A DNA stretch of 41,085 bases, taken from the NCBI GenBank assembly GCA_035517655.1, contig DATIYJ010000010.1:1-41085 (forward strand), read 5' to 3'. The stretch comes from Nitrospiria bacterium. Lineage in GTDB: Bacteria; Nitrospirota; Nitrospiria; JACQBZ01. The notes below the pieces were generated by a model. That model was not told where the DNA came from. It did no database searches and was given only the letters and a program-made list of their open reading frames with translations. Both the position numbers and the translations under genes were made by a program. Shown in pieces: positions 2,812-21,454 of the stretch (its first letter is position 1; the number at the start of each line of letters is the position of its first letter).

Positions 2812-5268
2812 ATGCAGACCAAGAACAGAAAAAATCGCATCGTCGGATGGACGATCAGCGGGCTTTTTCTTTTATCTTTCGGTTACTATCTCACGTCGTG
2901 CGTCAGCTCCTCGAACCAGACCGTGTCCGAGAACGATCTGCCCGGGGTGGCGTTCGTCAAGCGGTCGGTCGACGCGATCGGCAATCCTCTGGATCCGATC
3001 GAATTCAAGGCCGGGGGCGATCTTTATACCCTGGTCCCGGGCACCCCGTCGGGAAAGCTGCGGAATATCACGGGAGACCTGACGAACGGCGCGGGGGACG
3101 TCTCCGACCCGGAAATCTTTCCGCAGACGCAGGGCGGGCCGTTCCGGCTGGTCTTCTCGATGAACAAGGGGAGCGGCGATCACTGGCACGTTTATGAAGT
3201 CCAGATCAATGAGGACGGGAGCCGGGCGACTGCGCCGGTCCAGCTGACCTGCGGCGATTCGGACGAACTCGCCCCCGCCTATCTTCCGGACGGCCGGATC
3301 GTCTTTGCCTCGAACCGTCCCGGCTATCTCGACGAATACGAACGGAGGAAATCGACCGTTCTTCATATTCTCGACCGAACCAAGACGGTCCAAGCCGGCC
3401 AGCCCTCCTGCGATTCCGGCGAGGTCGTCCAGATCTCGTTCAACCAGAGCCACGACCGGAACCCGATCGTCCTCCGGGACGGGACGATCCTCTACAGCCG
3501 TTGGGAGCATCTCGGAACGGTGAACAAGTTCGCCATTTTCTTCATGGAGCCGGACGGGACGGATACGTTCGTCAAATACGGCTCGCATTCCGGAGTGAAC
3601 ACCTTTCTCGATCTTCGCGAGCAGCTGGACGGCAGCCTCGTCGCCACCATGATGCCGCTGAGCGGAACCTACGAGGGCGGCGCCATCGGGCATCTCGATA
3701 TCGTCAACGAGGTCGACGATCCTAATACGGCCTCCCTCCAGCTGACCGGTTCCCAGGTCATCCCGGCCGACATGACGCCATCCAATTTCGGCCGGTACCA
3801 CAACGTCTATCCCATTCCGGACGGGAGTCTCCGCTACCTGACCTCCTACTCGACCGGAAAAGTGATCAACGACCCGAAGAATAAAATCGTGCAGGAACCC
3901 GATTACGGCCTCTGGATGCTGAACAACAGCGACGGGACGCTCAAACCGATCCTCGTTCCGGGTGACAACAGCCGCCAGGCCTATCTCGAGCCGATCCCGC
4001 TCATGCCGGTCCCGGCCGCGATGATCCCGACGGCCAAGCCGGAGAAGGCGGCCAATCGGAGTTCGTTGGGGACGCAAGGGGTGCTCGCGGCCGCGAGCGT
4101 CTACGACTCGGAAGCCAACCGGGCCCTCTCGAACGAGGTCCTGGGCGTGACCATTCCGCGCGACGCCAACGGCATCATCGATTTCAACGCCCTCTGCAGC
4201 GACCCGAGCCTGCAGGTCGTCAAACAGGTCCGGATCATCCAGGCGGTTCCGAGCCAGGCCGGGGTCGGAACGGAAGACATCGGACTATCCGAGTTCGAGC
4301 GCCAGAGGATCCTCGGCTATGCGCCGGTCGAGTGCGACGGCTCCTTCCGCGTCACCGTGCCGGCCGATACGAGCCTGACCCTCAATGTGGTCGACTCCCA
4401 AAGCCGTTCGTTCAAAGTGAAGGAAAACTGGCTGGCGGTCCGGCCCGGAGAGAATCGGACCTGTAACGGCTGTCATTCGCCGCGCCGGGGAACTCCCCAG
4501 CGGCTGGCGACCGATTCCATCGCGCTCAACCGGGCTCCCTCGACCCTGGTTCCGCCCGCGATTCCGGTGATCGCCTTCAATACGAACATCCAGCCGATCT
4601 TCACGGCCAAATGCGTTTCGTGTCATTCGATCTCGGATCAAAATTCTGACGGAGTCCTCGACAGCCCGGCGGGCGGGCTTGACCTGAGCTCGGATCAGGC
4701 CGGCACCGGGTTCCCGATCTCCTACTCGAGCCTTCTCGAAGACAATATGAACGGCTCGGACCTGGTCTTTCCCGGGGAATCGCAGCAGAGTTATCTCATC
4801 GAACGGGTTTTCGGCCAGGAAATCCGGGCCGTCCGTTCCCTGCCGGCCTCGGATCCGAACAATCACGCCCAGATGCTGACGCCGGATGAAAAACAGACCC
4901 TGGTCGAATGGATCGATCTGGGGGCGCAGTTCAGCAACGAAGATGTCGTCAGCAATCCGGGCCGTAAGCGGCTCGACACGACGGTCTTTACGTCCGCCAT
5001 CCAGCCGATTCTTCTCAACCGCTGCGGCCAATGCCATGTGGCCGGCGGCGACAGCAACTTTGTATTGACCGGGGACACCGAGGAGGGCGATTTCAACGCG
5101 ACGGCGGCCCGTGTGAACGTGACCGATCCGGCTCAAAGCATCCTGCTTTTGAAAGCGACGGGAACGATCCCGATGCTCGTGAACGGAACGGCGGTCGCGC
5201 CTCCGCCGCTTTCCCCTTCGGATCCGGACTATACGACGATACTCAACTGGATCACGGCGGCGCAGTGA
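2812..5268 (+). CDS. HzsA-like triheme c-type cytochrome lipoprotein
   Basis: This 818-residue protein starts with a hydrophobic segment ending in a lipobox (LTSC, Cys30), so it should be a lipid-anchored envelope protein. Residues about 60-400 look like a TolB/beta-propeller (repeated PDG and LPDG turns such as LAPAYLPDGRIVFASNRPGY). The C-terminal part has three heme-binding motifs: CNGCH (551-555), CVSCH (601-605) and CGQCH (738-742). Length and propeller-plus-cytochrome order resemble the hydrazine synthase alpha subunit (HzsA) and its many non-anammox relatives; hydrazine chemistry should not be assumed, since no HzsB/HzsC partners are present. Start: ATG 2812 with AGGAGG at 2801-2806. 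First gene of the riboswitch operon. Confidence 0.8.
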   Translation: MQTKNRKNRIVGWTISGLFLLSFGYYLTSCVSSSNQTVSENDLPGVAFVKRSVDAIGNPLDPIEFKAGGDLYTLVPGTPSGKLRNITGDLTNGAGDVSDPEIFPQTQGGPFRLVFSMNKGSGDHWHVYEVQINEDGSRATAPVQLTCGDSDELAPAYLPDGRIVFASNRPGYLDEYERRKSTVLHILDRTKTVQAGQPSCDSGEVVQISFNQSHDRNPIVLRDGTILYSRWEHLGTVNKFAIFFMEPDGTDTFVKYGSHSGVNTFLDLREQLDGSLVATMMPLSGTYEGGAIGHLDIVNEVDDPNTASLQLTGSQVIPADMTPSNFGRYHNVYPIPDGSLRYLTSYSTGKVINDPKNKIVQEPDYGLWMLNNSDGTLKPILVPGDNSRQAYLEPIPLMPVPAAMIPTAKPEKAANRSSLGTQGVLAAASVYDSEANRALSNEVLGVTIPRDANGIIDFNALCSDPSLQVVKQVRIIQAVPSQAGVGTEDIGLSEFERQRILGYAPVECDGSFRVTVPADTSLTLNVVDSQSRSFKVKENWLAVRPGENRTCNGCHSPRRGTPQRLATDSIALNRAPSTLVPPAIPVIAFNTNIQPIFTAKCVSCHSISDQNSDGVLDSPAGGLDLSSDQAGTGFPISYSSLLEDNMNGSDLVFPGESQQSYLIERVFGQEIRAVRSLPASDPNNHAQMLTPDEKQTLVEWIDLGAQFSNEDVVSNPGRKRLDTTVFTSAIQPILLNRCGQCHVAGGDSNFVLTGDTEEGDFNATAARVNVTDPAQSILLLKATGTIPMLVNGTAVAPPPLSPSDPDYTTILNWITAAQ

Positions 5269-10038: not shown

Positions 10039-10583
10039 GCATGCGCAGCCGAATCGTAATCCTTATTCTTTTTGTCCTTTCTCTTTTTCCATGTCGTGCT
10101 TCCCGGGCCGAACCGGCGAATGCGCCTCAACAGCAAATGGAGAACCTGGACGGCCAGATTCAAGACCTCAAGGAAAAGATCCTGAACCTGAACACGCTCC
10201 TCTTCCGGCTCCAGGAGGATCTTCTTTTTCCCGAGGACTCCTCCGTCGTGGTCTTCCTGGCGGTGGAAGGAGGGAATTACTTCGCGCTGGATTCGGTCAA
10301 GCTGAACCTGGACAACACGATGGTCACAAGTTACCTTTACACGGACCGGGAAGTCGGCGCCCTGAGAAAGGGAGGGATTCAACGGCTCTACATGGGAAAC
10401 GTGAAGTCCGGCGATCATCAACTGGTGGCCGTTTTCACGGGGAAAGGCCCGCAGGAAAAGGATTACAAACGGGCGGAAACGGTTCAATTCACCAAGAAGG
10501 ACGGCGCCGCCTTTATCAAGATCATCATACGGGACAGTTCGGAGAAAGAGCAGCCTGAGTTTGCCTATGAAACATGGAACTGA
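10035..10583 (+). CDS. Periplasmic coiled-coil protein of unknown function
   Basis: ATG 10035 overlaps the ApbE stop (ATGA). The 182-residue product has a signal peptide (residues about 6-25, ending SRAEP), a short coiled coil (ENLDGQIQDLKEKILNLN, residues about 36-60) and then a beta-rich domain (SSVVVFLAVEGGNYFALDSV, SGDHQLVAVFTGKG). I do not recognise a named family. Comparable proteins follow ApbE or precede TPR genes in other envelope clusters, as I recall; I cannot verify this. It probably assembles with the TPR proteins that follow. Confidence 0.7.
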   Translation: MSMRSRIVILILFVLSLFPCRASRAEPANAPQQQMENLDGQIQDLKEKILNLNTLLFRLQEDLLFPEDSSVVVFLAVEGGNYFALDSVKLNLDNTMVTSYLYTDREVGALRKGGIQRLYMGNVKSGDHQLVAVFTGKGPQEKDYKRAETVQFTKKDGAAFIKIIIRDSSEKEQPEFAYETWN

Positions 10584-12465
10584 AAAGGGCGGGAGGGCCA
10601 TACGCCGGACCGGCCGGCTTTTGCTGATCATCCCGTGGGCTCTTCTGCTCGGTTTTTCCGCCCCGCCGGCGCGGGCGGCCGAGCCTTCGATCGACATCGA
10701 AAAAAGGGCGGAGACCCTGCAACGGGAGGCCTATTACGATTTCTTCCTGGGAGACTACCTCACGTCGGCGACCCGTCTGAAGCTGCTTGAACAGTCGGCC
10801 GAAAAAGATGGAAAGGTATTGAACGACACCCGTCTTCTCCTGGGGGGGCTTTACATCGCCTGGGGCATGTATCGTCCGGCCGCCGCTCTGTTCGACCGAT
10901 GGGTCGAACAGTTTCCCCCGGGGAGCAGCCGGAACCAGCTCCTGCTCCTGATCGAACGGCTGCAGTATCAACGCGCGCTCTATCAGTCCGCGATCGACAC
11001 CTTTAAACGGCTATCGCCGGACTCGGCCTTCGCGTTGATGGACCAGGCCTGTTACCTGGCCGGTATGAGCGATTACCTCCAGGGCTCTGTTCCGGAAGGG
11101 ATCGGCGTTCTGGAGTCCGTTCCGCCATCCAGCGGATACTTTCCCTTCGCCCAGTTGGCCGTGGCCCAGTCCTATGTCCAACTGAAAGATTTCGAAAAGT
11201 CGATCGCGCTCCTGAAAAAACTCATCGCGACCGATCATCGTGGAGATCCCGTCCTCGGAGCCTTCGCCGAGAAAACCCGTCTGATCCTGGGGCTGCTCCT
11301 GATCGAGTTGGGAAGGTTTCAGGAGGCCCGTCCGGTCCTCGCGTCCATTCCGTCGGCGAGTCCGTTTTATCCCGACGCCCTTTTCGGGGCGGGATGGGCC
11401 GATTTCGATGCGGGACGTTATTCGGAGGCCCTTCCTTATTTTCAGGAATTGTCGGAAGCATATCCGGATCATGTCTACGCTTTGGAAGGACTGAATACGA
11501 TCGGGGGGAGTTATCGGAAGCTGGGCGCGTTTGCGAAGGCCCTTCAAAGTTATGGAAAGGCCCTTGATGTTTATGAGCGGAAAGGGAAGGAGATCCATGA
11601 GATTAGGACGTTGATCCAGGACCGGGAACGGCTGGCCGATTGGCTCGGCCGACCGGAGGACCCTCAAGAAGACCGCTTGATCCCTTTTCTCGACGAAGAC
11701 CTGCTTCGCTTCCGGATCGACCGGTACCGGGAGCTTTCTTCTCTCGCGGCCTATCTCGACCGGAAGGCGGCGGATATGGGCGTTTTTGAGATCATGGTCG
11801 ATCACCGGGAAGAGGTCTTCCGGGGGCACCTCCCGACTCTCCGCGGTTTTCTGGACAACGATCCGGTCAAGGCGCTCCAGGAACAAGAACGGCTCCTTCA
11901 GGCCCGTCTTCAAGAGGCGACGCGAACGGAACGGGTGGAGGCCCTCGCAACGACCAAAGAGAGGGAGAAACTCGATCAATTGGCCCGGGCGCAATCGCAA
12001 GGGCGGGAGCTGCTGGAAGCGGTCGGGCGGATGGGGGCCGCTTCGCCGGATCTCCAGGAGCTGAAGGGACAGATCGAAGCGGCCAACCGTCGACTGGCCC
12101 TGTTTCGAGGCGAACTCCTCTGGAGGGTGGTCACCGAGGCCCCCGGTCGGATCGATGATCTTCAAAGAAGCGAGGCACAACTCCGGGAAGGTTTGGATGC
12201 GCTGTCCGGGCGGCGGGCGCGATTGACGGCTTCGGCCCCGACCCTGGAAAACGATCTCGAACGGTTTCGCGAAAGAATACGCACGGCCCGTCAATCCCTG
12301 CTGGAAGAAAAAGAAACGGCGCTCGATCTTCAAAGAAAACTCCTTCCCCCTTTGCAGGTTCTGCTATTGCAGGCCCTTGATAAACAACAGGGGCGGATCG
12401 AGCATCTGGCCGCCGTGGCGAAACTGAGCCGGATCCAGATCCTGGATCTAAAGAGTCGCCCATGA
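10567..12465 (+). CDS. Secreted TPR and coiled-coil envelope protein (632 aa)
   Basis: ATG 10567 lies inside the end of the previous gene (17-base overlap) and begins a signal peptide (RLLLIIPWALLLGFSAPPARAAE). Residues about 40-370 form TPR-like helix pairs (for example PYFQELSEAYPDHVYALEG and GAFAKALQSYGKALDVY). Residues about 430-620 are a long charged coiled coil (QEQERLLQARLQEATRTER and later). Such TPR plus coiled-coil proteins act as periplasmic scaffolds in gliding-type (Glt) and Tol-like machines, but the family here is not one I can name. A scaffold role is inferred from architecture. Confidence 0.75.
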   Translation: MKHGTEKGGRAIRRTGRLLLIIPWALLLGFSAPPARAAEPSIDIEKRAETLQREAYYDFFLGDYLTSATRLKLLEQSAEKDGKVLNDTRLLLGGLYIAWGMYRPAAALFDRWVEQFPPGSSRNQLLLLIERLQYQRALYQSAIDTFKRLSPDSAFALMDQACYLAGMSDYLQGSVPEGIGVLESVPPSSGYFPFAQLAVAQSYVQLKDFEKSIALLKKLIATDHRGDPVLGAFAEKTRLILGLLLIELGRFQEARPVLASIPSASPFYPDALFGAGWADFDAGRYSEALPYFQELSEAYPDHVYALEGLNTIGGSYRKLGAFAKALQSYGKALDVYERKGKEIHEIRTLIQDRERLADWLGRPEDPQEDRLIPFLDEDLLRFRIDRYRELSSLAAYLDRKAADMGVFEIMVDHREEVFRGHLPTLRGFLDNDPVKALQEQERLLQARLQEATRTERVEALATTKEREKLDQLARAQSQGRELLEAVGRMGAASPDLQELKGQIEAANRRLALFRGELLWRVVTEAPGRIDDLQRSEAQLREGLDALSGRRARLTASAPTLENDLERFRERIRTARQSLLEEKETALDLQRKLLPPLQVLLLQALDKQQGRIEHLAAVAKLSRIQILDLKSRP

Positions 12466-15269
12466 AACCGATCGCGATCGGGCTTTGCCTTTTATTGCTC
12501 GGCGGCTGCAGCCTGGGCCGGGATTCCCGACGCCCCGAAGCGCCCCCGTCGTTGACGACGAAGGAGATCGAAGCGCTTCGCCAAGAGCCGCTGGTCGCTC
12601 GGAAGGAAGCCGTGGTGAAGGCGTACGAGGATTTTCTAAAGCAGTATGATCGGGTCGACCCCTCTTTAACCTCACAAGCCCTGAAGCGCCTGGGGGATCT
12701 CTATCTCGAAACTTCGAATCAGCGCTTCCAAAAGGCGATGGAAGCCTATGAAGCGCATCCGGAGGGGCCGCCTCCGCTGGTGGATGATCGAAAGGCGATC
12801 GCGACCTACGAAGAGCTTCTTCGTTCCGATCCGGGATATCCGGAAAACGACGAGGTCCTCTACGCCCTTTCGCGCGCCTATGCCGAGACCGGAAACCGGG
12901 AGATGGCCGTCGGATCGCTCGAACGTCTTCTGAAGGACTATCCGCGGAACCGGCATCGACAGGAGGCCTCGTTTCGCTTGGGCGAGTATTATTTTGATCA
13001 ACGTTTATACGAAAAAGCCGCGGAAGCCTATGAGCAGTCCCTGGCCTTGAAAGACCCCTTTTTCCTCGACAAGGCGCGGTACAAGCTCGGTTGGACGTAC
13101 TTCAACATGAAACAATACCCGCGAGCGATTGATCATTTTCTCCGGTTGGTCAATCAGAAGGTGACGGCGGAAGGGGACATCCCCTTCGAGCAAGGCTCCT
13201 TGGTCTGGGAAGCGATGACCTATGTGGCGACCTCGTTTCGGATTCTCGGGGGAGCGGCTCCTCTCTCGGCGTACTTCCAAAAAAACGGATCTCTTCCCTA
13301 TGAGAAAGATCTCTACCTGATGGTCGGAAACCAATCTCTGTCGGACGGAGATCCTCAGTCGGCGGTCGACACGTACCGGACGTTCATCCGTCAACATCCG
13401 CTGCATCCGATGGCGCCGATTTTTTTATCGTATATCATCGAGGTCTATGAGAAGGAAAAGGACCCGCCGTCGGCCGAAAAGGCCAGGGTCCAGTTGGTCG
13501 AAACGTATTCCTCGCAGAGCCCATGGTACCGGGCCAACGATGAAGCGGCCCGCTCCCGTTCCCGGCCGATCGTGCAGTCGGAGCTCTATCGCCTCGCCCT
13601 CTCGGCCCATGCCCGTGCGCAGGCCGGGAAAAACCAGGAAGATTACCGTGAGGCGGCGGGATGGTACCGGCAATTTCTCGCCGAGTTTCCCCACCAGAAG
13701 GAATCGCGGGATGTCCACCTCTTTCTGGCCGAGACCCTTTTCGCGTTGGGCGAGTTCGCCCAAGCCGGAGAGGAATATGAGACGGCCGCCTACGGCTATC
13801 CGGAGAAAGGCGCGAATTCGAAGGCCGCCTATGACGCGGTCGTGGCCTATCAGAAGGTCGATACAGAAAAGGGCAGCGACAAAGTGATCGATCTTTCCAA
13901 GCGCTTTGCCGCGATTTTTCCTCAGGACCCCAAGACCCCGGCGCTTTTGCTCAAAGCCGGAGAGATTCTCTTTGAGGCGAAGCGCTATGACGAAACCCTC
14001 GGCGTCCTTAAAGACTTTCCGGGCCGTTATCCCAAGGAGGAAGGGGCGACGACGGCGCAAAAACTCGTTGCGCACAGCCTGATGCAGCTGGGACGTTTTG
14101 AAGAGGCCCGTCAGGCCTACCGTCAGACGCTGGCCCTGCTTCCCCCGTCGGATACGAAGGGGCGCCAGGAGATCGCCGATCTGTTGGCCGCGGCCGTTTA
14201 TAAACAGGCTGAAAGTCGCCAGCGGGAAAACCGGCCGGAGGAAGCGGTCCGTCTCTATGAGGATGTGGCCGAGGAGGCTCCTCGGAGCGAACTGGCCCCC
14301 CAGGCCCTTTTTGAAGCCGGCCAGATCCGTGAGGGAATGAAGCAAATCAAAAACGCGATCGCAATGTATCAGAGGCTGATTCTCCTCTCTCCCGATTCCA
14401 CGCTTTCGGGAAAAGCGCAGGTGCAGATCGGTTTGCTGTATGAACAAGAGGGGGAATGGGTCCCATCCGCGGATGCCTACGTCTCCGCCGCCGGAAATAT
14501 CCGGGATGAGAGCCTTGTTTCCCATCTCCTTTTTACGGCCGGTCTCTATTACGAAAAGAGCGGCCGATGGGAAGAGTGTTATAACGCCTTCTCAAGGTTC
14601 ACCGGGCGGTTTCCACAAAACCCGGACGCGGCGGAAGCGCTTTTCAAAATGGCCAACGCCCGACAAAAACAACAAAAGACCCGGGAAGCGCTGCAACTTT
14701 TTGAGAAAGTGGAGCAGCAATTCCCCGCAACGCCGTTTGCCGCGGAGGCTCTGTTTCAGATCGGCGAGGAGGCTTACCAGAATTTTAAAGCCGTACGGTT
14801 GCGGGAACCTTTGAACAAAAACCTGAAAAAAAAGGCCAAGGCCATGGAAAGGGCGGTCGCCCTCTATACCAAGGCGATCCAGACCCGGTATTCCGATGTG
14901 GTCACGGCTTCTTCTTACCGACTGGGGGAGATTTTTGAAAATTTCAAGTCGTCTCTTCTCGATGCGGAACCCCCTCGAAACCTGACCAAGGACGAGCAGG
15001 AGGAGTACCGCTTCCAACTGGAGGAGAAGGCTTTTCCTTTTGAGGAGAAGGCGGTGGAAGCCTATTTCAGCAACGTGCGCCGGATCCGGGACGAGAACAG
15101 TCCTTACAACGAATGGATCAAAAAAAGTTTCAACCGCCTGGCCGAGCTGAGGCCCGCGCTGTACCGCCGGCCGGAAAGGACGGAACGGATTGTCTCCGTC
15201 GTCGATCAACGTCAGTTATCGACTCAAACCCCTGAAGACTCCCGCGGGAGAATGGTGCAGGCCCGATGA
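12462..15269 (+). CDS. Large TPR lipoprotein (935 aa)
   Basis: ATG 12462 overlaps the previous stop (ATGA). A lipobox LGGCS (Cys16) marks it as a lipoprotein. Nearly the whole chain is TPR-type helical repeat, with many copies of the A.Y......P....A...LGE pattern (for example HRQEASFRLGEYYFDQ, YEKAAEAYEQSLAL and PYNEWIKKSFNRLAELRP near the end). It resembles the large TPR lipoproteins of myxobacterial gliding loci (GltE-like) and BamD/CpoB-like scaffolds, though length and context fit the former better. It likely lines the inner leaflet of the outer membrane and organises the complex. No enzyme motif is visible. Confidence 0.8.
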   Translation: MKPIAIGLCLLLLGGCSLGRDSRRPEAPPSLTTKEIEALRQEPLVARKEAVVKAYEDFLKQYDRVDPSLTSQALKRLGDLYLETSNQRFQKAMEAYEAHPEGPPPLVDDRKAIATYEELLRSDPGYPENDEVLYALSRAYAETGNREMAVGSLERLLKDYPRNRHRQEASFRLGEYYFDQRLYEKAAEAYEQSLALKDPFFLDKARYKLGWTYFNMKQYPRAIDHFLRLVNQKVTAEGDIPFEQGSLVWEAMTYVATSFRILGGAAPLSAYFQKNGSLPYEKDLYLMVGNQSLSDGDPQSAVDTYRTFIRQHPLHPMAPIFLSYIIEVYEKEKDPPSAEKARVQLVETYSSQSPWYRANDEAARSRSRPIVQSELYRLALSAHARAQAGKNQEDYREAAGWYRQFLAEFPHQKESRDVHLFLAETLFALGEFAQAGEEYETAAYGYPEKGANSKAAYDAVVAYQKVDTEKGSDKVIDLSKRFAAIFPQDPKTPALLLKAGEILFEAKRYDETLGVLKDFPGRYPKEEGATTAQKLVAHSLMQLGRFEEARQAYRQTLALLPPSDTKGRQEIADLLAAAVYKQAESRQRENRPEEAVRLYEDVAEEAPRSELAPQALFEAGQIREGMKQIKNAIAMYQRLILLSPDSTLSGKAQVQIGLLYEQEGEWVPSADAYVSAAGNIRDESLVSHLLFTAGLYYEKSGRWEECYNAFSRFTGRFPQNPDAAEALFKMANARQKQQKTREALQLFEKVEQQFPATPFAAEALFQIGEEAYQNFKAVRLREPLNKNLKKKAKAMERAVALYTKAIQTRYSDVVTASSYRLGEIFENFKSSLLDAEPPRNLTKDEQEEYRFQLEEKAFPFEEKAVEAYFSNVRRIRDENSPYNEWIKKSFNRLAELRPALYRRPERTERIVSVVDQRQLSTQTPEDSRGRMVQAR

Positions 15270-15910
15270 TGCGACGCTTCGGTCCGATCAAAGGATTTCT
15301 TTTTCTCGTCCTTTTGATGTCATCCGTCGGATGCATGCGGACTTCCGCGATCGTCGCTCGTCCGGAAGCTCCTGCACCGGCGGCTCCGGAAGCTCGGAAT
15401 GATTTGTCCCGTCGCACCGAACCGGGCGGGCCCCTTCTCCAGTTCAAGCAAGGGGTGCAGCTTCTCGAGAACGGACAGAACGACGAAGCGCGGCATTTGT
15501 TTGAAAAACTCCGGGATACCTATCCAAAGATGAGTGTTATTTATAAAGATCTGGGTGTGACCTATAAACGTCTCGGACTCATTCCGGAGGCCGTGGCCTC
15601 CTATCAACGGGCCCTCGAAATTGAAAGAGGCGACGCGGAGGTTTATTACAATCTGGCCATCGCCCTGCGCGAGCAGGGGGAGTTCCGCAAAGCGGAGGAG
15701 GCCTACAAAACCGCTCTTGCGATCTCTCCGGATTTTATGGATGCTCATTACAACCTGGCCGTTCTTTATGACCTCTATCTCAACGAGCCGAACGAGGCCA
15801 TCCGCCACTACCAACGGTTTCTGGAATTGGGAGGCGGGGATCCCAAAGAAATTCAGATTTGGATCGCGGCTCTTCAGAAAAGAACCGACGAATCGAAGAG
15901 GTCGCCATGA
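15266..15910 (+). CDS. TPR lipoprotein (214 aa)
   Basis: ATG 15266 overlaps the previous stop (ATGA). The lipobox is SSVGC (Cys23). Residues about 65-200 contain four TPR units, clearest in VYKRLGLIPEAVASYQRALE, VYYNLAIALREQGEFRKAEE and AHYNLAVLYDLYLNEPNEAI. It is PilF/Pgb1-like in size and fold, so a pilotin-type role is an alternative to a structural one. Overlaps on both sides place it firmly in the riboswitch operon. Confidence 0.8.
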   Translation: MMRRFGPIKGFLFLVLLMSSVGCMRTSAIVARPEAPAPAAPEARNDLSRRTEPGGPLLQFKQGVQLLENGQNDEARHLFEKLRDTYPKMSVIYKDLGVTYKRLGLIPEAVASYQRALEIERGDAEVYYNLAIALREQGEFRKAEEAYKTALAISPDFMDAHYNLAVLYDLYLNEPNEAIRHYQRFLELGGGDPKEIQIWIAALQKRTDESKRSP

Positions 15911-16263
15911 GACCGCTTCTATGGAGACGGGTTTGCGCTCTGATCGGAATTTTCCTGATCGGGGCCACGGTCTTCCCGGCCGATCTTCCCTCCAAAGAAG
16001 CTGCGGGATCTGAAAAAAAGACCCCGGGACAGTTTAAGGAGGAAGGATCAAAGGACGTCGAACAGTTGCTCATGCAGGGAACCGAAATCCAGGGGACGGT
16101 TGAAAAACCTCATGTGGTATATGTTATCCCTTGGAAGGACCTCCCGTCCGGGGTGGAAGAAGAGGTTCCACTGCACCGAAGCTTCAGGAACGAGATCCTG
16201 GAACCGGTGGACCGGGAGCAGTTTCAGCGTCAATGGGAAAGTTTCTCACGCAATCCCAAATAA
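15907..16263 (+). CDS. Small exported protein of unknown function (118 aa)
   Basis: ATG 15907 overlaps the TPR gene's stop (ATGA). The product has a signal peptide or membrane anchor (VCALIGIFLIGATVFPA, residues 9-25), a Lys-rich linker, and a conserved-looking segment: VEQLLMQGTEIQGTVEKPHVVYVIPW, followed by LHRSFRNEILEPVDREQFQRQW. The strand VEKPHVVYVIPWKD occurs in small proteins beside AgmX/TonB-like genes, as I recall, but I cannot name the family. Position suggests a partner of the AgmX-domain protein. Confidence 0.65.
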   Translation: MRPLLWRRVCALIGIFLIGATVFPADLPSKEAAGSEKKTPGQFKEEGSKDVEQLLMQGTEIQGTVEKPHVVYVIPWKDLPSGVEEEVPLHRSFRNEILEPVDREQFQRQWESFSRNPK

Positions 16264-16277
16264 GGACGATTGAAGGG

Positions 16278-17237
16278 ATGTCTTATTTTCAAGATTCGAA
16301 TGAGGCGCGTTTCAGAAAAATCCTGTTGCGGTGCGTCGTCTTTTATTTTTCATGCGCGGCGGCCATAACGCTGATCCCGTTCCCTCATGCGGAGAAGCCC
16401 GATTTCAAGAACCTGCCCAGCCGTGTGGCGAAGTTGATTCTGAAATCTCCCGCTCCGCCGCCCCCCAGCCCGGAAGTGGTTAAACCGAATGACAAAACGT
16501 CTCCCGAGAAATCAAACCCCGAAGAAGGCGGACCCAAACCGACAAGCAAGGCTCCTCCCATCAGAAGGCAAATTGTCATGAGAAGCGGTCTCTTGGGTTC
16601 TTTGAACAAGGGAGAAACCGGAAGGACATTGAGCGCGCTGGTCGAAGACCGGAAATTAGATCAAGCCCTCTCAGCCGCGAACCTGATTGCCGCTCCGACG
16701 GCACGGTCAAGGCGCTCTTCGATCAAGAACGTCGTGACGACAAAGACGGACCTTGCCGATCAGAAGATCGCGCGTATCGGCGGACTTAAAGAAGAGGAAC
16801 GGGTGAAGCTTAAGAAAGGGAACGAGGTTGCGATGCTTCCTTTGCAAGAAGGCCCCGGGGGCGGCGGCGGGTCGGGTCGTGGTGGAGACGGGTCCGGAAA
16901 CGGGGTATCGATCCGTCTAACGGGCGGCGGCTCCGGGACGGGGAATGCCTCTGTTAATTATGACGCCATCGCGCGCGTGGTCGAACAGTACAAGGGCGGC
17001 CTCATCTATCTATATAACAAAGAGCTCCGACTCAACCCCACCTTGAAGGGGACGATTACGGTGGAGTTTTCCATTGACGGGAGCGGAAAAGTCATTGAAA
17101 CCCGTGTCGTGACGAGTACCATGGATTATGCGCCTCTTGAGAATGCGCTGGCCGGTCGGATCAAGATGTGGAAGTTTCCCCACCTCTACGACGGGGTCAT
17201 TGTCGTGACCTATCCTTTCGTTTTTTTCCCGGTGTAA
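16278..17237 (+). CDS. AgmX/PglI C-terminal domain protein, TonB-like
   Basis: ATG 16278 is 14 bases after the previous stop and precedes one membrane helix (ILLRCVVFYFSCAAAITLIP, residues 15-34). A Pro-rich stretch (SPAPPPPSPEVV) and a Gly-rich linker (about residues 193-222) lead to the C-terminal AgmX/PglI domain: LRLNPTLKGTITVEFSIDG, GKVIETRVVTSTM, then KMWKFPHL and VTYPFVFFPV. The layout is that of TonB and of GltJ/AgmX proteins, which carry proton-motive force across the periplasm with ExbB/ExbD (TolQ/TolR) motors. No such motor genes lie in this window. The family's usual cysteines in this domain are absent. Last gene of the operon. Confidence 0.82.
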   Translation: MSYFQDSNEARFRKILLRCVVFYFSCAAAITLIPFPHAEKPDFKNLPSRVAKLILKSPAPPPPSPEVVKPNDKTSPEKSNPEEGGPKPTSKAPPIRRQIVMRSGLLGSLNKGETGRTLSALVEDRKLDQALSAANLIAAPTARSRRSSIKNVVTTKTDLADQKIARIGGLKEEERVKLKKGNEVAMLPLQEGPGGGGGSGRGGDGSGNGVSIRLTGGGSGTGNASVNYDAIARVVEQYKGGLIYLYNKELRLNPTLKGTITVEFSIDGSGKVIETRVVTSTMDYAPLENALAGRIKMWKFPHLYDGVIVVTYPFVFFPV

Positions 17238-19016: not shown

Positions 19017-19511
19017 ATGAGTAAGAGCAACAATAGCAAGGATGAGAAAGTTTTCTTCACCTCTCACGAGGCAGGCGAGATCATCGGTCTGACCCGGCGT
19101 CAGATCCAGCACTGGGATCAAAGCGATCTTATCAGACCGAGTTCGCGCACAGCCGGGGGACACTCCCGCTATACCTTCCAGGATCTCGTCGCTTTCAAAA
19201 CAGCCAAAAAATTGTTGGACGCCGGCGTTTCGCTTCAGCGCATACGTCAAAGCATCGGTGAACTCCTAAAGCTTCTGCCGACCGTCAAACGGCCGCTGGC
19301 CGAACTGACGCTTGTCGCGACGGGCGATATGGTCGTCGTGTTTTATGAGGGGACCGTATTTGAAGCGATCTCCGGACAGCAGTGGATCGTCGAGGTGTCC
19401 GAAGTCCAATCGGCCGTTGACAAGTGGCAAAAACGCGTCCGGGAGCTTAGCCGGTACCGGAAGATTCACAAGGGTCATGGCTCGACACGACAGATTGATA
19501 AGGCGTCATAA
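19017..19511 (+). CDS. MerR-family DNA-binding protein next to ParA
   Basis: The 164-residue protein has a MerR-type winged helix at residues about 12-80: FFTSHEAGEIIGLTRRQIQHWDQ, then the TAGGHSRYTFQDLV wing and AKKLLDAGVSLQRIRQSI. The C-terminal half (AELTLVATGDMVVVFYEG onward) is a small domain without metal-binding cysteines, so this is not a metal sensor. Proteins of this type often precede a ParA gene in delta-type bacteria and may bind a centromere-like or regulatory site; that role is inferred. A gap of about 100 bases holds an inverted repeat CGATCGG/CCGATCG before parA. Confidence 0.8.
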   Translation: MSKSNNSKDEKVFFTSHEAGEIIGLTRRQIQHWDQSDLIRPSSRTAGGHSRYTFQDLVAFKTAKKLLDAGVSLQRIRQSIGELLKLLPTVKRPLAELTLVATGDMVVVFYEGTVFEAISGQQWIVEVSEVQSAVDKWQKRVRELSRYRKIHKGHGSTRQIDKAS

Positions 19512-19607: not shown

Positions 19608-20510
19608 ATGCGCACGATCTCAATCATTAATCAAAAAGGGGGATGCGGTAAAACAACAACGGCCATCAACCTGTCCGCCTCTCTTGCAAAACTGAATCGA
19701 CGTGTGCTATTGATTGACCTGGACCCCCAGGGGCATGCTTCTCTCGGCCTGAACCTCAGACCGGAGGACCTGACAAAAGGGATGACCGAAGTCTTAACAC
19801 AGGGAGCCTGCTTGGATGACGTCGTTTATGAATCGATCTGCCCCAATCTGGACGTGGCCCCCGCCAACATTACGCTCAGTTCGGCGGAACAGCTTTTGGC
19901 TTCGGCCGCACAGAAGGAACAGCGGTTGCTCTCCGCGATCGAGTCTTCCCGGCGGTCCTATCATTACGTCATCATCGATTCGCCGCCCAGTCTGGGCCTG
20001 TTGACCTTCAACTCGTTGCGTGCCAGCGACGAGGCGATTGTTCCGGTCGATATGGGCTTCTTTTCTCTTCACGGACTGGCGAAGTTGATCGAGATCGTCG
20101 ATGTGGTGGCGCGACATACGGGCCACGAGGTCGCGGTGTGGGCCCTGGCGACCATGGTCAACCGTCACGCGCGATTTACCCAGGAGATATTGGACGAAGT
20201 GAAACGGCACTTTATGGAACGCACGTTTAAAACGATGATCCGCAACAATGTCAGGCTTCGCGAGGCGACCAGTCACGGTTTGCCGATCACCGAATACGAT
20301 CCTCATGCGATCGGAGCCGCGGATTACATGTCCCTGGCTCAAGAGGTGATCCAGCCGGAGGCCGGTGTCTCCGTCGAGGCTGCGGCGACCGCGGCGGCGC
20401 CAAGAATTCCCGAGATCGAAGCGCAGAAATTTTTGGGACCGATCCTCATCGAAGAAATCCTTCCGGATCAGACCAAGCGATCCGTCTTGAAATCGGGGGC
20501 CAACGGATGA
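19608..20510 (+). CDS. ParA-family partition ATPase
   Basis: The 300-residue protein has the deviant Walker A motif KGGCGKTT (residues 10-17), Walker A' LLIDLDPQGHASLGL, and Walker B HYVIIDSPPSLGLLT. It is a Soj/ParA-like ATPase that dimerises on ATP, binds DNA non-specifically and positions cargo. An excellent ribosome binding site (AAAGGAGGAG) precedes ATG 19608. The C-terminal 50 residues (Ala-rich, then KFLGPILIEEILPDQTKRS) extend past the usual ParA end. The next gene overlaps by four bases and encodes a ParA-like protein without the nucleotide site, so the pair may function together. No ParB with a helix-turn-helix is in the window. Confidence 0.92.
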   Translation: MRTISIINQKGGCGKTTTAINLSASLAKLNRRVLLIDLDPQGHASLGLNLRPEDLTKGMTEVLTQGACLDDVVYESICPNLDVAPANITLSSAEQLLASAAQKEQRLLSAIESSRRSYHYVIIDSPPSLGLLTFNSLRASDEAIVPVDMGFFSLHGLAKLIEIVDVVARHTGHEVAVWALATMVNRHARFTQEILDEVKRHFMERTFKTMIRNNVRLREATSHGLPITEYDPHAIGAADYMSLAQEVIQPEAGVSVEAAATAAAPRIPEIEAQKFLGPILIEEILPDQTKRSVLKSGANG

Positions 20511-21454
20511 ACTCCAAAAAAAGATTGGGAAAGGGTCTCGAGGATGTCTCGCATCTTTTTCTCTCGACTCCCGCGGCCGCTCCGGCGCTGAATCGGATGA
20601 ACCTGCCGCCTCGAAAATTCGGGGAGGCCGTGAATTTAAAAACAAGGACATGGCTGGTTTTGAGTCTTGTTCCCCGCTTGCCGTCGGCCTTTTTTACGGC
20701 CAACCTGGCCGTGGAGTTGGCGCGTTGCGGCCGGCAAGTTTTGCTGATCGAAACCGCGCCGTTGCCCTCGCTGGACAAAGTCTTTGGAACCGTCCAGATT
20801 CAACCGTCCCTCAACGATCTGTTGGAGCAGCCGCAAAAACAGATCGTCGTGGACGGCCCGATGGGAATCAAGGTCTTAAGTTTTCGGTTGCGGCCGGACG
20901 AACTCCAAGGGTTTGCCGCGGAAGAGCAGGAAATTCTGGCCCAGATTTTACGGCGAGAGGAAGAGAAAGCCGAGCAGATTCTGATTCACGCCGTTTATGA
21001 AGAGAACCCTTCCTTTGAGAAGCTGGCGAGTCTCGGGCAAGGCGTCATTCTATCCGCGGAGCTCAACGCCGATACGATTCTTCAGACCTACCAGGCCTGT
21101 AAATATTTGTATCGGGTTGCCCCCGATCTACGAATCGGACTTCTTGCGTTTGGAAAAGAAGACCGGGAGACGTTGACGGTATGCATGGATAAGTTAAGCG
21201 ACGCGTCGGAGCGCTTCTTGGGAAAAGCATTGGAATGGTACGGAATCATCCCGGAGGAACCGTTGATTGATCGTTCCCTCACGGCCAAGGTTCCCTTGGC
21301 CCTGCTTGATCGGACTTCCAAGGCCTCCGAAGGGTTTGCCATCGCCGTTCAAAATCTTCAACAGGAAAAGGGACCGATCTCCGATCCGCCCCTGGCTCCG
21401 TATTCCTTTGTGGATCGGCTTCAACGTCCCGCGGATATTGTGGAGGAACCATGA
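20507..21454 (+). CDS. ParA/MinD-like pseudo-ATPase with ParB-like N-terminus
   Basis: ATG 20507 overlaps the ParA stop (ATGA). The 315-residue chain begins KKRLGKGLEDVSHLFLS, close to the LGKGL motif at the N-terminus of ParB proteins that stimulates ParA ATPase. From residue 45 it follows the ParA/MinD fold: LVLSLVPRLPSAFFTANLAVELARCGRQVLLIE, QPSLNDLLEQ and GIKVLSFRL. The P-loop position (residues 53-64) lacks KGGxGKT, and the LIDxDPQ motif reads LIETAPL, so it should not hydrolyse ATP. I infer a regulatory partner of the upstream ParA. Confidence 0.7.
   Translation: MNSKKRLGKGLEDVSHLFLSTPAAAPALNRMNLPPRKFGEAVNLKTRTWLVLSLVPRLPSAFFTANLAVELARCGRQVLLIETAPLPSLDKVFGTVQIQPSLNDLLEQPQKQIVVDGPMGIKVLSFRLRPDELQGFAAEEQEILAQILRREEEKAEQILIHAVYEENPSFEKLASLGQGVILSAELNADTILQTYQACKYLYRVAPDLRIGLLAFGKEDRETLTVCMDKLSDASERFLGKALEWYGIIPEEPLIDRSLTAKVPLALLDRTSKASEGFAIAVQNLQQEKGPISDPPLAPYSFVDRLQRPADIVEEP

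Follow-up and report, generated by a model that had tools for sequence, protein, structure and literature searches.

The stretch of 41,085 nucleotides analysed here (the window), from a Nitrospiria genome (G000), contains a tight plus-strand cluster of four genes, which encode a MerR-type regulator, an intact ParA ATPase, a ParA-like protein without a P-loop that we call pPar, and a protein designated ORF3 (Table 1). The ParA stop and the pPar start overlap by 4 bp, as do the pPar stop and the ORF3 start. Around the cluster, the genes of the window are mostly of housekeeping or envelope type. A series of TPR proteins together with a weakly TonB_C-like protein, possibly an envelope machine, is encoded upstream of the cluster at 10561-17237 (+). 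Near ApbE and DUF3570 genes, an 818-aa protein encoded at 2812-5265 (+) matches the hydrazine-synthase alpha middle domain (PF18582, E 1.2e-18) and carries a WD40-like repeat.

Table 1. Genes and features of the ParA-pPar cluster in the window
Feature	Coordinates	Strand	Basis or remark
MerR-type regulator gene	19017..19511	+	Pfam MerR_1, E 7.4e-15; upstream of ParA
Intact ParA ATPase, 300 aa	19608..20510	+	AAA_31, E 3.7e-52; NQKGGCGKTTT signature; no C-terminal CBM
pPar, FlhG/MinD-fold protein without P-loop, 315 aa	20507..21454	+	
pPar residues 1-20, ParB-like putative ParA-binding peptide MNSKKRLGKGLEDVSHLFLS	20507..20566	+	K9 is the central basic residue
Site of the lost P-loop, pPar residues 53-64, SLVPRLPSAFFT	20663..20698	+	Alignment columns
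Short C-terminal helix of pPar, residues 301-306	21407..21424	+	Model helix; profile alignment with FlhG 4rz2
ORF3, PD-(D/E)XK (EndoMS/NucS-like) fold without E-x-K, 189 aa	21451..22020	+	Model

Folds and lost catalytic motifs of pPar and ORF3

A preliminary description of this DNA, made from the sequence alone, had proposed that the pPar gene encodes a relative of ParA/MinD that lost the KGGxGKT and LIDxDP motifs, and both points were confirmed by our searches. The single sequence matched TIGR01969 (E 2.4e-06) and the FleN chain 8pb9 (E 1.3e-06), and a profile built from 23 pPar homologues matched FlhG 4rz2 (E 2.3e-33, 119 bits), FleN 5j1j (1e-28), archaeal MinD 1hyq (2.4e-15) and Soj 6iub (3.7e-04, 23 bits). 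The profile also aligned with that of the neighbouring ParA family (probability 94.6, E 6.4e-08), starting at the end of the P-loop. The AlphaFold model of pPar (mean pLDDT 81.9, pTM 0.79) matched FlhG 4rz2_B best (Z 26.5, rmsd 2.9 over 251 residues), with lower matches to FleN (Z 23.2; 7ejw, from a FleN-FleQ complex) and Soj 1wcv (Z 19.6). The deviant Walker A motif (KGGxGKT) was absent from all 23 aligned homologues, among which an intact P-loop would, by the preliminary description, have spoken against its reading; the window protein has SLVPRLPSAFFT in its place, and both P-loop lysines are gone. The LIDxDP position reads IETAP in the window protein, and a VDxD-like segment is kept in other lineages. 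In the model, pPar has a short helix near its C-terminus, which the profile aligns with the C-terminal FF helix of FlhG and which is thus a candidate membrane-targeting helix. FF is found at this place in 18 of the 23 pPar sequences, FV in the window protein and MF in one further sequence, with no counterpart in three. A DQAxxLR enhancer helix of the FlhG type was not found, DQA being absent from residues 1-45 of the window protein. pPar is a dead member of the ParA/MinD superfamily with an FlhG/MinD-type core.

The loss of the catalytic motifs would also suit a degenerating, functionless copy of FlhG. However, in six pairs from six genomes of the window's family (f1), dN/dS was 0.14-0.33 for pPar, compared with 0.10-0.16 for ParA and 0.22-0.30 for ORF3, and pPar is under purifying selection. 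Such decay also conflicts with a peptide that is invariant across phyla and with a ParA co-occurrence of 17/17 (see below), and we find the idea of a relic hardly tenable.

The model of ORF3 (mean pLDDT 81.8) resembled EndoMS 5gkj_B (Z 11.5, rmsd 2.2 over 107 residues), with which it shares the PD-(D/E)XK fold; further Foldseek matches ranked lower and were weak, and the profile match to EndoMS was weak as well (E 0.012). The E-x-K strand motif, which we take to hold the catalytic residues of EndoMS/NucS, was not seen by eye in 17 aligned ORF3 rows. Judging from the model, ORF3 is built on a dead nuclease fold. With pPar lacking the P-loop and ORF3 lacking E-x-K, the operon would thus comprise one working ATPase and two proteins with dead-enzyme folds.

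The N-terminal peptide of pPar and the ParB of the same genome

The N-terminus of the window pPar, KKRLGKGLEDVSHLFLS, is similar to the ParA-binding motif in the genome's chromosomal ParB, which is encoded away from the cluster and starts with MQKKALGRGLDALF. Twenty-two ParB proteins from pPar genomes carry LG(K/R)G(L/I) behind basic residues, and pPar shares with ParB the pattern KKxLG(K/R)GL, with equal spacing of three hydrophobic residues and the central basic residue. In contrast to ParB, pPar has no ParB_N domain, as judged from its Pfam matches and a genome-wide ParB_N search, and its motif is extended by a conserved SHxFLS. The likeness was scored with a profile made from the 22 ParB N-termini, which was run against 1279 ORFs of at least 100 aa that included ParB, pPar and many spurious frames. 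The window pPar scored 9.6 and ranked 35th, behind the 22 ParB proteins (at least 19.7 when jackknifed), 11 other pPar and 1 unrelated ORF, which together make up the 34 ORFs with higher scores. Among the 23 pPar, 12 scored below 9.6 and 4, from families f5 and f8, below zero. The sequence resemblance between the two N-termini is clear, although weaker than that among true ParB proteins.

Conservation within the family is centred elsewhere. Across the 23 homologues, S15, F18 and S20 never vary, L11, I14 and H16 are almost as strictly conserved, and position 9 is K or R in 21; the most conserved stretch of the family is ISHxFLS (I/V-S-H-x-F-L-S), which lies just after LGKGL. LGKGL itself is degraded in the pPar of f5, f8, f6, f15 and Desulfobacterales, and in f15 and f6 it is lost while LxxISHxF is retained. 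Because LGKGL was lost in some lineages and ISHxFLS was kept, we regard ISHxFLS as the signature of the family and LGKGL as a feature of most lineages. The ParB-like LGKGL start emphasised in the preliminary description therefore holds as a resemblance, but not as the invariant part of the peptide. Residues 1-43 mostly have pLDDT below 50 in the model, which suggests that the peptide is probably disordered. pPar thus carries a short basic N-terminal peptide outside its folded domain, as do partner proteins of ParA/MinD ATPases, and the peptide is joined to the large core by a linker modelled with low confidence.

The ParA next to pPar is intact, as first described, with NQKGGCGKTTT and LIDLDP both present, and matched ParA 8ray (E 8.7e-51). 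The window's genome encodes one ParB_N protein, on contig 6, beside a separate ParA to which the window ParA is 37% identical, and at least one ParB_N protein was found in 22 of 23 pPar genomes tested. Given its position, this ParB belongs to the other ParA, so that the pPar operon itself is without one. The notion of a system lacking classical ParB consequently applies to the operon but not to the genome, which has a canonical ParB.

In M. xanthus ParA, the pocket that receives R13 of ParB is formed by Y81, E82, D110 and E117, as described in part of PMC12462528. Alignment with 8ray, taken here as M. xanthus ParA with numbering derived from the D60A change, placed T60, E61, T89 and L96 of the window ParA at these positions, of which one of four is kept. 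The changed pocket weakens the claim that the pPar and ParB peptides bind ParA in an identical mode; from the sequence, the change may keep the two ParA systems of one cell from cross-talk.

Co-occurrence with ParA and gene neighbourhoods

The pPar profile matched in 179 of the 295 genomes of the phylum, with most of the matches listed beginning after residue 30-60. We took these mostly as FlhG/MinD paralogues and rejected the profile search as a way of counting pPar; a ParA signature, the exact DNA pattern for NQKGGCGKTTT(A/S)IN, was therefore used as a marker in a scan of the same 295 genomes. The signature, which misses variants such as the NHKGGC forms of loci L070 and L071, was detected in 17 genomes (reversed control, 0), all of which have a motif-bearing pPar-like gene, located directly after ParA in 16. 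In genome G011 (L211, L212), contig 7 carries a ParA with a carbohydrate-binding module (CBM), and MerR and pPar are encoded on contig 6, where an ORF3-like gene is recognisable by eye after pPar without a match to the ORF3 profile. This split operon indicates that the ParA-pPar link is not a matter of adjacency alone. The pPar profile strongly confirmed pPar of f22 (core E 2.4e-60 and 2.9e-57) and gave weaker values for f15 and f6 (core E 8e-16, 9.5e-13, 3.9e-08 and 1.5e-11), where for three f15 genes and the f6 gene it is chiefly the latter half of the core that matches. ParA genes reach about 1e-07 on this profile as background, and L208 (about 4e-08) is not clearly above it, so that its assignment as pPar is based on motif and position. 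Within f1, pPar was found in 6 of 7 genomes searched, and a single-protein scan of named genomes for pPar found nothing. Of 77 pattern stretches, 18 were confirmed by the profile scan; further tag carriers may be hidden among the other 59.

Gene neighbours were compared among 33 genomes, for which locus lengths differ, and absences of neighbours are therefore lower-bound statements. The preliminary description had suggested checking whether the MerR-like gene co-occurs with pPar, and the association was seen in Nitrospirota, where MerR adjoins the system in 19 of 22 genomes (one copy being a fragment), but not beyond: no MerR gene turned up in the loci fetched for 11 non-Nitrospirota genomes. 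It was likewise missing from the fetched loci of 3 f5 genomes. ParA stays in these genomes (read directly for L070 and L071, and masked in L080). We conclude from the loci outside Nitrospirota that MerR is not a core part of the system. All four f22 loci (L204-L207) have a phosphatase gene, presumably of PP2C type, divergent from the MerR gene. ORF3 was detected in 21 of the 33 genomes at E 1e-3 or better, and its profile had no match in f22, f15, L081 or L212.

This distribution bears on two readings that give MerR a central part. If pPar acted on the MerR-type regulator as the anti-activator FleN acts on FleQ, with ParA incidental, the adjacency of MerR in Nitrospirota and the close structural match to FleN, including the FleN of the FleQ complex, would be explained; however, where MerR is missing it is ParA that stays, which makes this role distinctly unlikely. 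Alternatively, the MerR protein could bind the centromere in a second Par system, one for DNA partition, with pPar as the link. The MerR protein does match RacA chromosome-anchoring models, but weakly (E 0.0035, far under the cut-off), and chromosomal surroundings with housekeeping genes, the presence of pPar in nearly all f1 genomes searched and the place of MerR outside the core render a partition module very unlikely.

A second tagged protein, CBMs and the proposed role of pPar

In six Omnitrophota loci (L072, L074, L075, L184, L185 and L186), the gene order is a pseudopilin-like gene, ParA with a CBM, pPar, ORF3, a gene presumably of laccase type and a DUF4912 gene. In 5 of these loci, the next gene encodes a GH57 protein with a C-terminal branching-enzyme domain (Pfam); none was seen in L186. 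The DUF4912 protein, identified by Pfam in all six loci and also containing a glucodextranase B domain, is unrelated to pPar, yet it bears the ParB-like tag in 5 of 6 loci (KKLGKGLEDISHLFLS and close forms) and lacks it in one. Within the longest ORF, the tag is preceded by about 40-55 residues, and for L184 and L185 the tag region was detected by the pPar profile (E 3.8e-07 and 7.3e-08). A DNA pattern for the tag gave 9 matches in 6 of 285 genomes of the Omnitrophota phylum (reversed control, 0), and in the window's genome it matched pPar only. These sequences suggest that the putative ParA-binding tag is modular and was reused on a second protein.

That an unrelated protein has the peptide suggests binding by way of the peptide and not of the fold. 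This bears on the mixed dimer proposed in the preliminary description, in which pPar would pair with ParA via their common fold and poison or tune the ATP sandwich. The shared superfamily fold and the overlapping genes fit such pairing, but both P-loop lysines needed for the ATP sandwich are lost, pPar is nearer to FlhG than to Soj by profile score, and DUF4912 proteins use the peptide without the fold. In addition, the dimer interface is described, in part of PMC10241942, as restricting these ATPases to homodimers. We consider a mixed dimer unlikely and favour binding of ParA through the N-terminal peptide.

A CBM on ParA was found in 22 of the 33 genomes, with L080, in a partly masked stretch, as a probable 23rd. 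Its carriers are f3, f22, f15, f6, Zixibacteria, Omnitrophota, Desulfobacterales L081 and one Pseudomonadota MAG; it is absent from ParA in f1, f5 and f8, and PF16561 (AMPK-type CBM) had no match anywhere in the window's genome. In f15 (L209, L210), the ParA ORF spans 718-722 aa, and the CBM is located at the distal end. The module belongs to the AMPK beta type, matching 2f15 at E 1.9e-14, and in 10 aligned CBMs W32, W69 and N87 are invariant and K62 nearly so. These residues align with the Trp, Lys, Trp and Asn of AMPK, which we take to be glucan-binding positions. At L082, a separate CBM protein is encoded at 1020-1496, upstream of the ParA-pPar-ORF3 cluster.

DUF4912 was found in 11 of 23 pPar genomes, lying in the window's genome on another contig beside a GH57 gene, and the Zixibacteria locus L071 contains a GH57 gene whose product has a branching-enzyme domain. 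Several of these genomes also encode AMPK-type CBMs on proteins other than ParA, and glycogen synthase (GT5, PF08323) was not discriminating within the phylum, being present in 17 of 17 pPar genomes versus 242 of 278 others. A pilus was considered as cargo because each of the six Omnitrophota loci has a pseudopilin-like gene before ParA. In the lineages that combine ParA-CBM with a tagged DUF4912 protein next to the GH57 branching enzyme, gene content points to an alpha-glucan (glycogen) as the most likely cargo.

A protein with the shape of ParA that has lost its engine but carries a conserved ParB-like tag, with a working ParA alongside, probably acts as adaptor in an intracellular positioning system about which little is known. 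Co-occurrence with one type of ParA, as in partner proteins, was complete for the signature genomes, and we judge it likely that pPar is the partner of the ParA just upstream, serving as adaptor and probable ATPase activator. Like the ParB peptide, the N-terminal peptide would bind the ATP-bound, nucleoid-associated ParA dimer at its edge, with L7, L11 and V14 replacing the ParB hydrophobic residues and K9 the central Arg/Lys, and would stimulate ATP hydrolysis by ParA. In the ParB peptide, hydrophobic residues bind and the central R13 stimulates, according to part of PMC12462528. Together with ORF3, pPar would provide a docking platform through its dead core and C-terminal helix, and cargo docked on pPar/ORF3 would be moved or spaced along the nucleoid. 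Where a tagged DUF4912 protein is present, it and pPar may be two activators of one ParA, comparable to PomX and PomY acting on PomZ (PMC13170346, in part).

FlhG/FleN is the closest known counterpart of pPar in fold and sequence, and has an N-terminal activator segment, a core and a C-terminal helix in the same arrangement (PMC12826062, in part); pPar differs in lacking the P-loop and the DQAxxLR segment, in its ParB-like N-terminus and in being encoded with ParA. The N-terminal segment of FlhG activates another NTPase, and the protein ends in a membrane-targeting sequence (same source, in part). pPar may thus be a relative of FlhG with its N-terminal activator redirected to ParA. Short basic N-terminal peptides grafted onto diverse domains are described for ParA/MinD ATPase partners in parts of PMC7993993, PMC10241942 and PMC12204374. 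PomX, McdB and TlpT, like pPar, carry such a peptide on an unrelated cargo domain (PMC7993993 and PMC12204374, in part); unlike in these proteins, the peptide of pPar is borne by a protein that is itself a dead ParA/MinD-superfamily member, and in Omnitrophota another protein of the cluster has the tag as well. The neighbouring ParA is matched by models of BcsQ, and the pPar model by structures of BcsRQ. In cellulose secretion, the system of BcsQ with BcsR/BcsE likewise ties a MinD-type ATPase to a polysaccharide, but it differs from the pPar cluster in gene content.

Many ParA/MinD ATPases are 'orphans' without a known partner (PMC10241942, in part). Our literature search, which covered few subscription papers, showed nothing on dead ParA-fold partner proteins among the papers listed, nothing relevant on DUF4912 and no paper linking the ParA family with glycogen and CBM48; none of the papers listed dealt with nucleoid-based positioning of a storage glucan. 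What is new here is the carrier, a dead FlhG-like protein apparently turned adaptor, and the reuse of its tag: a ParA partner becomes recognisable from its sequence, and the tag can be searched in genomes for further cargo proteins. It is conceivable, though in our view doubtful, that a ParA-driven machine positions or partitions glycogen granules, with a glycogen-binding domain on ParA itself, pPar and the DUF4912 protein encoded beside the branching enzyme sharing a transplantable tag, and the window's lineage representing a derived branch that dropped the CBM from ParA. If this holds, it would be, to our knowledge, the first case of a storage glucan being positioned by a nucleoid-based system.
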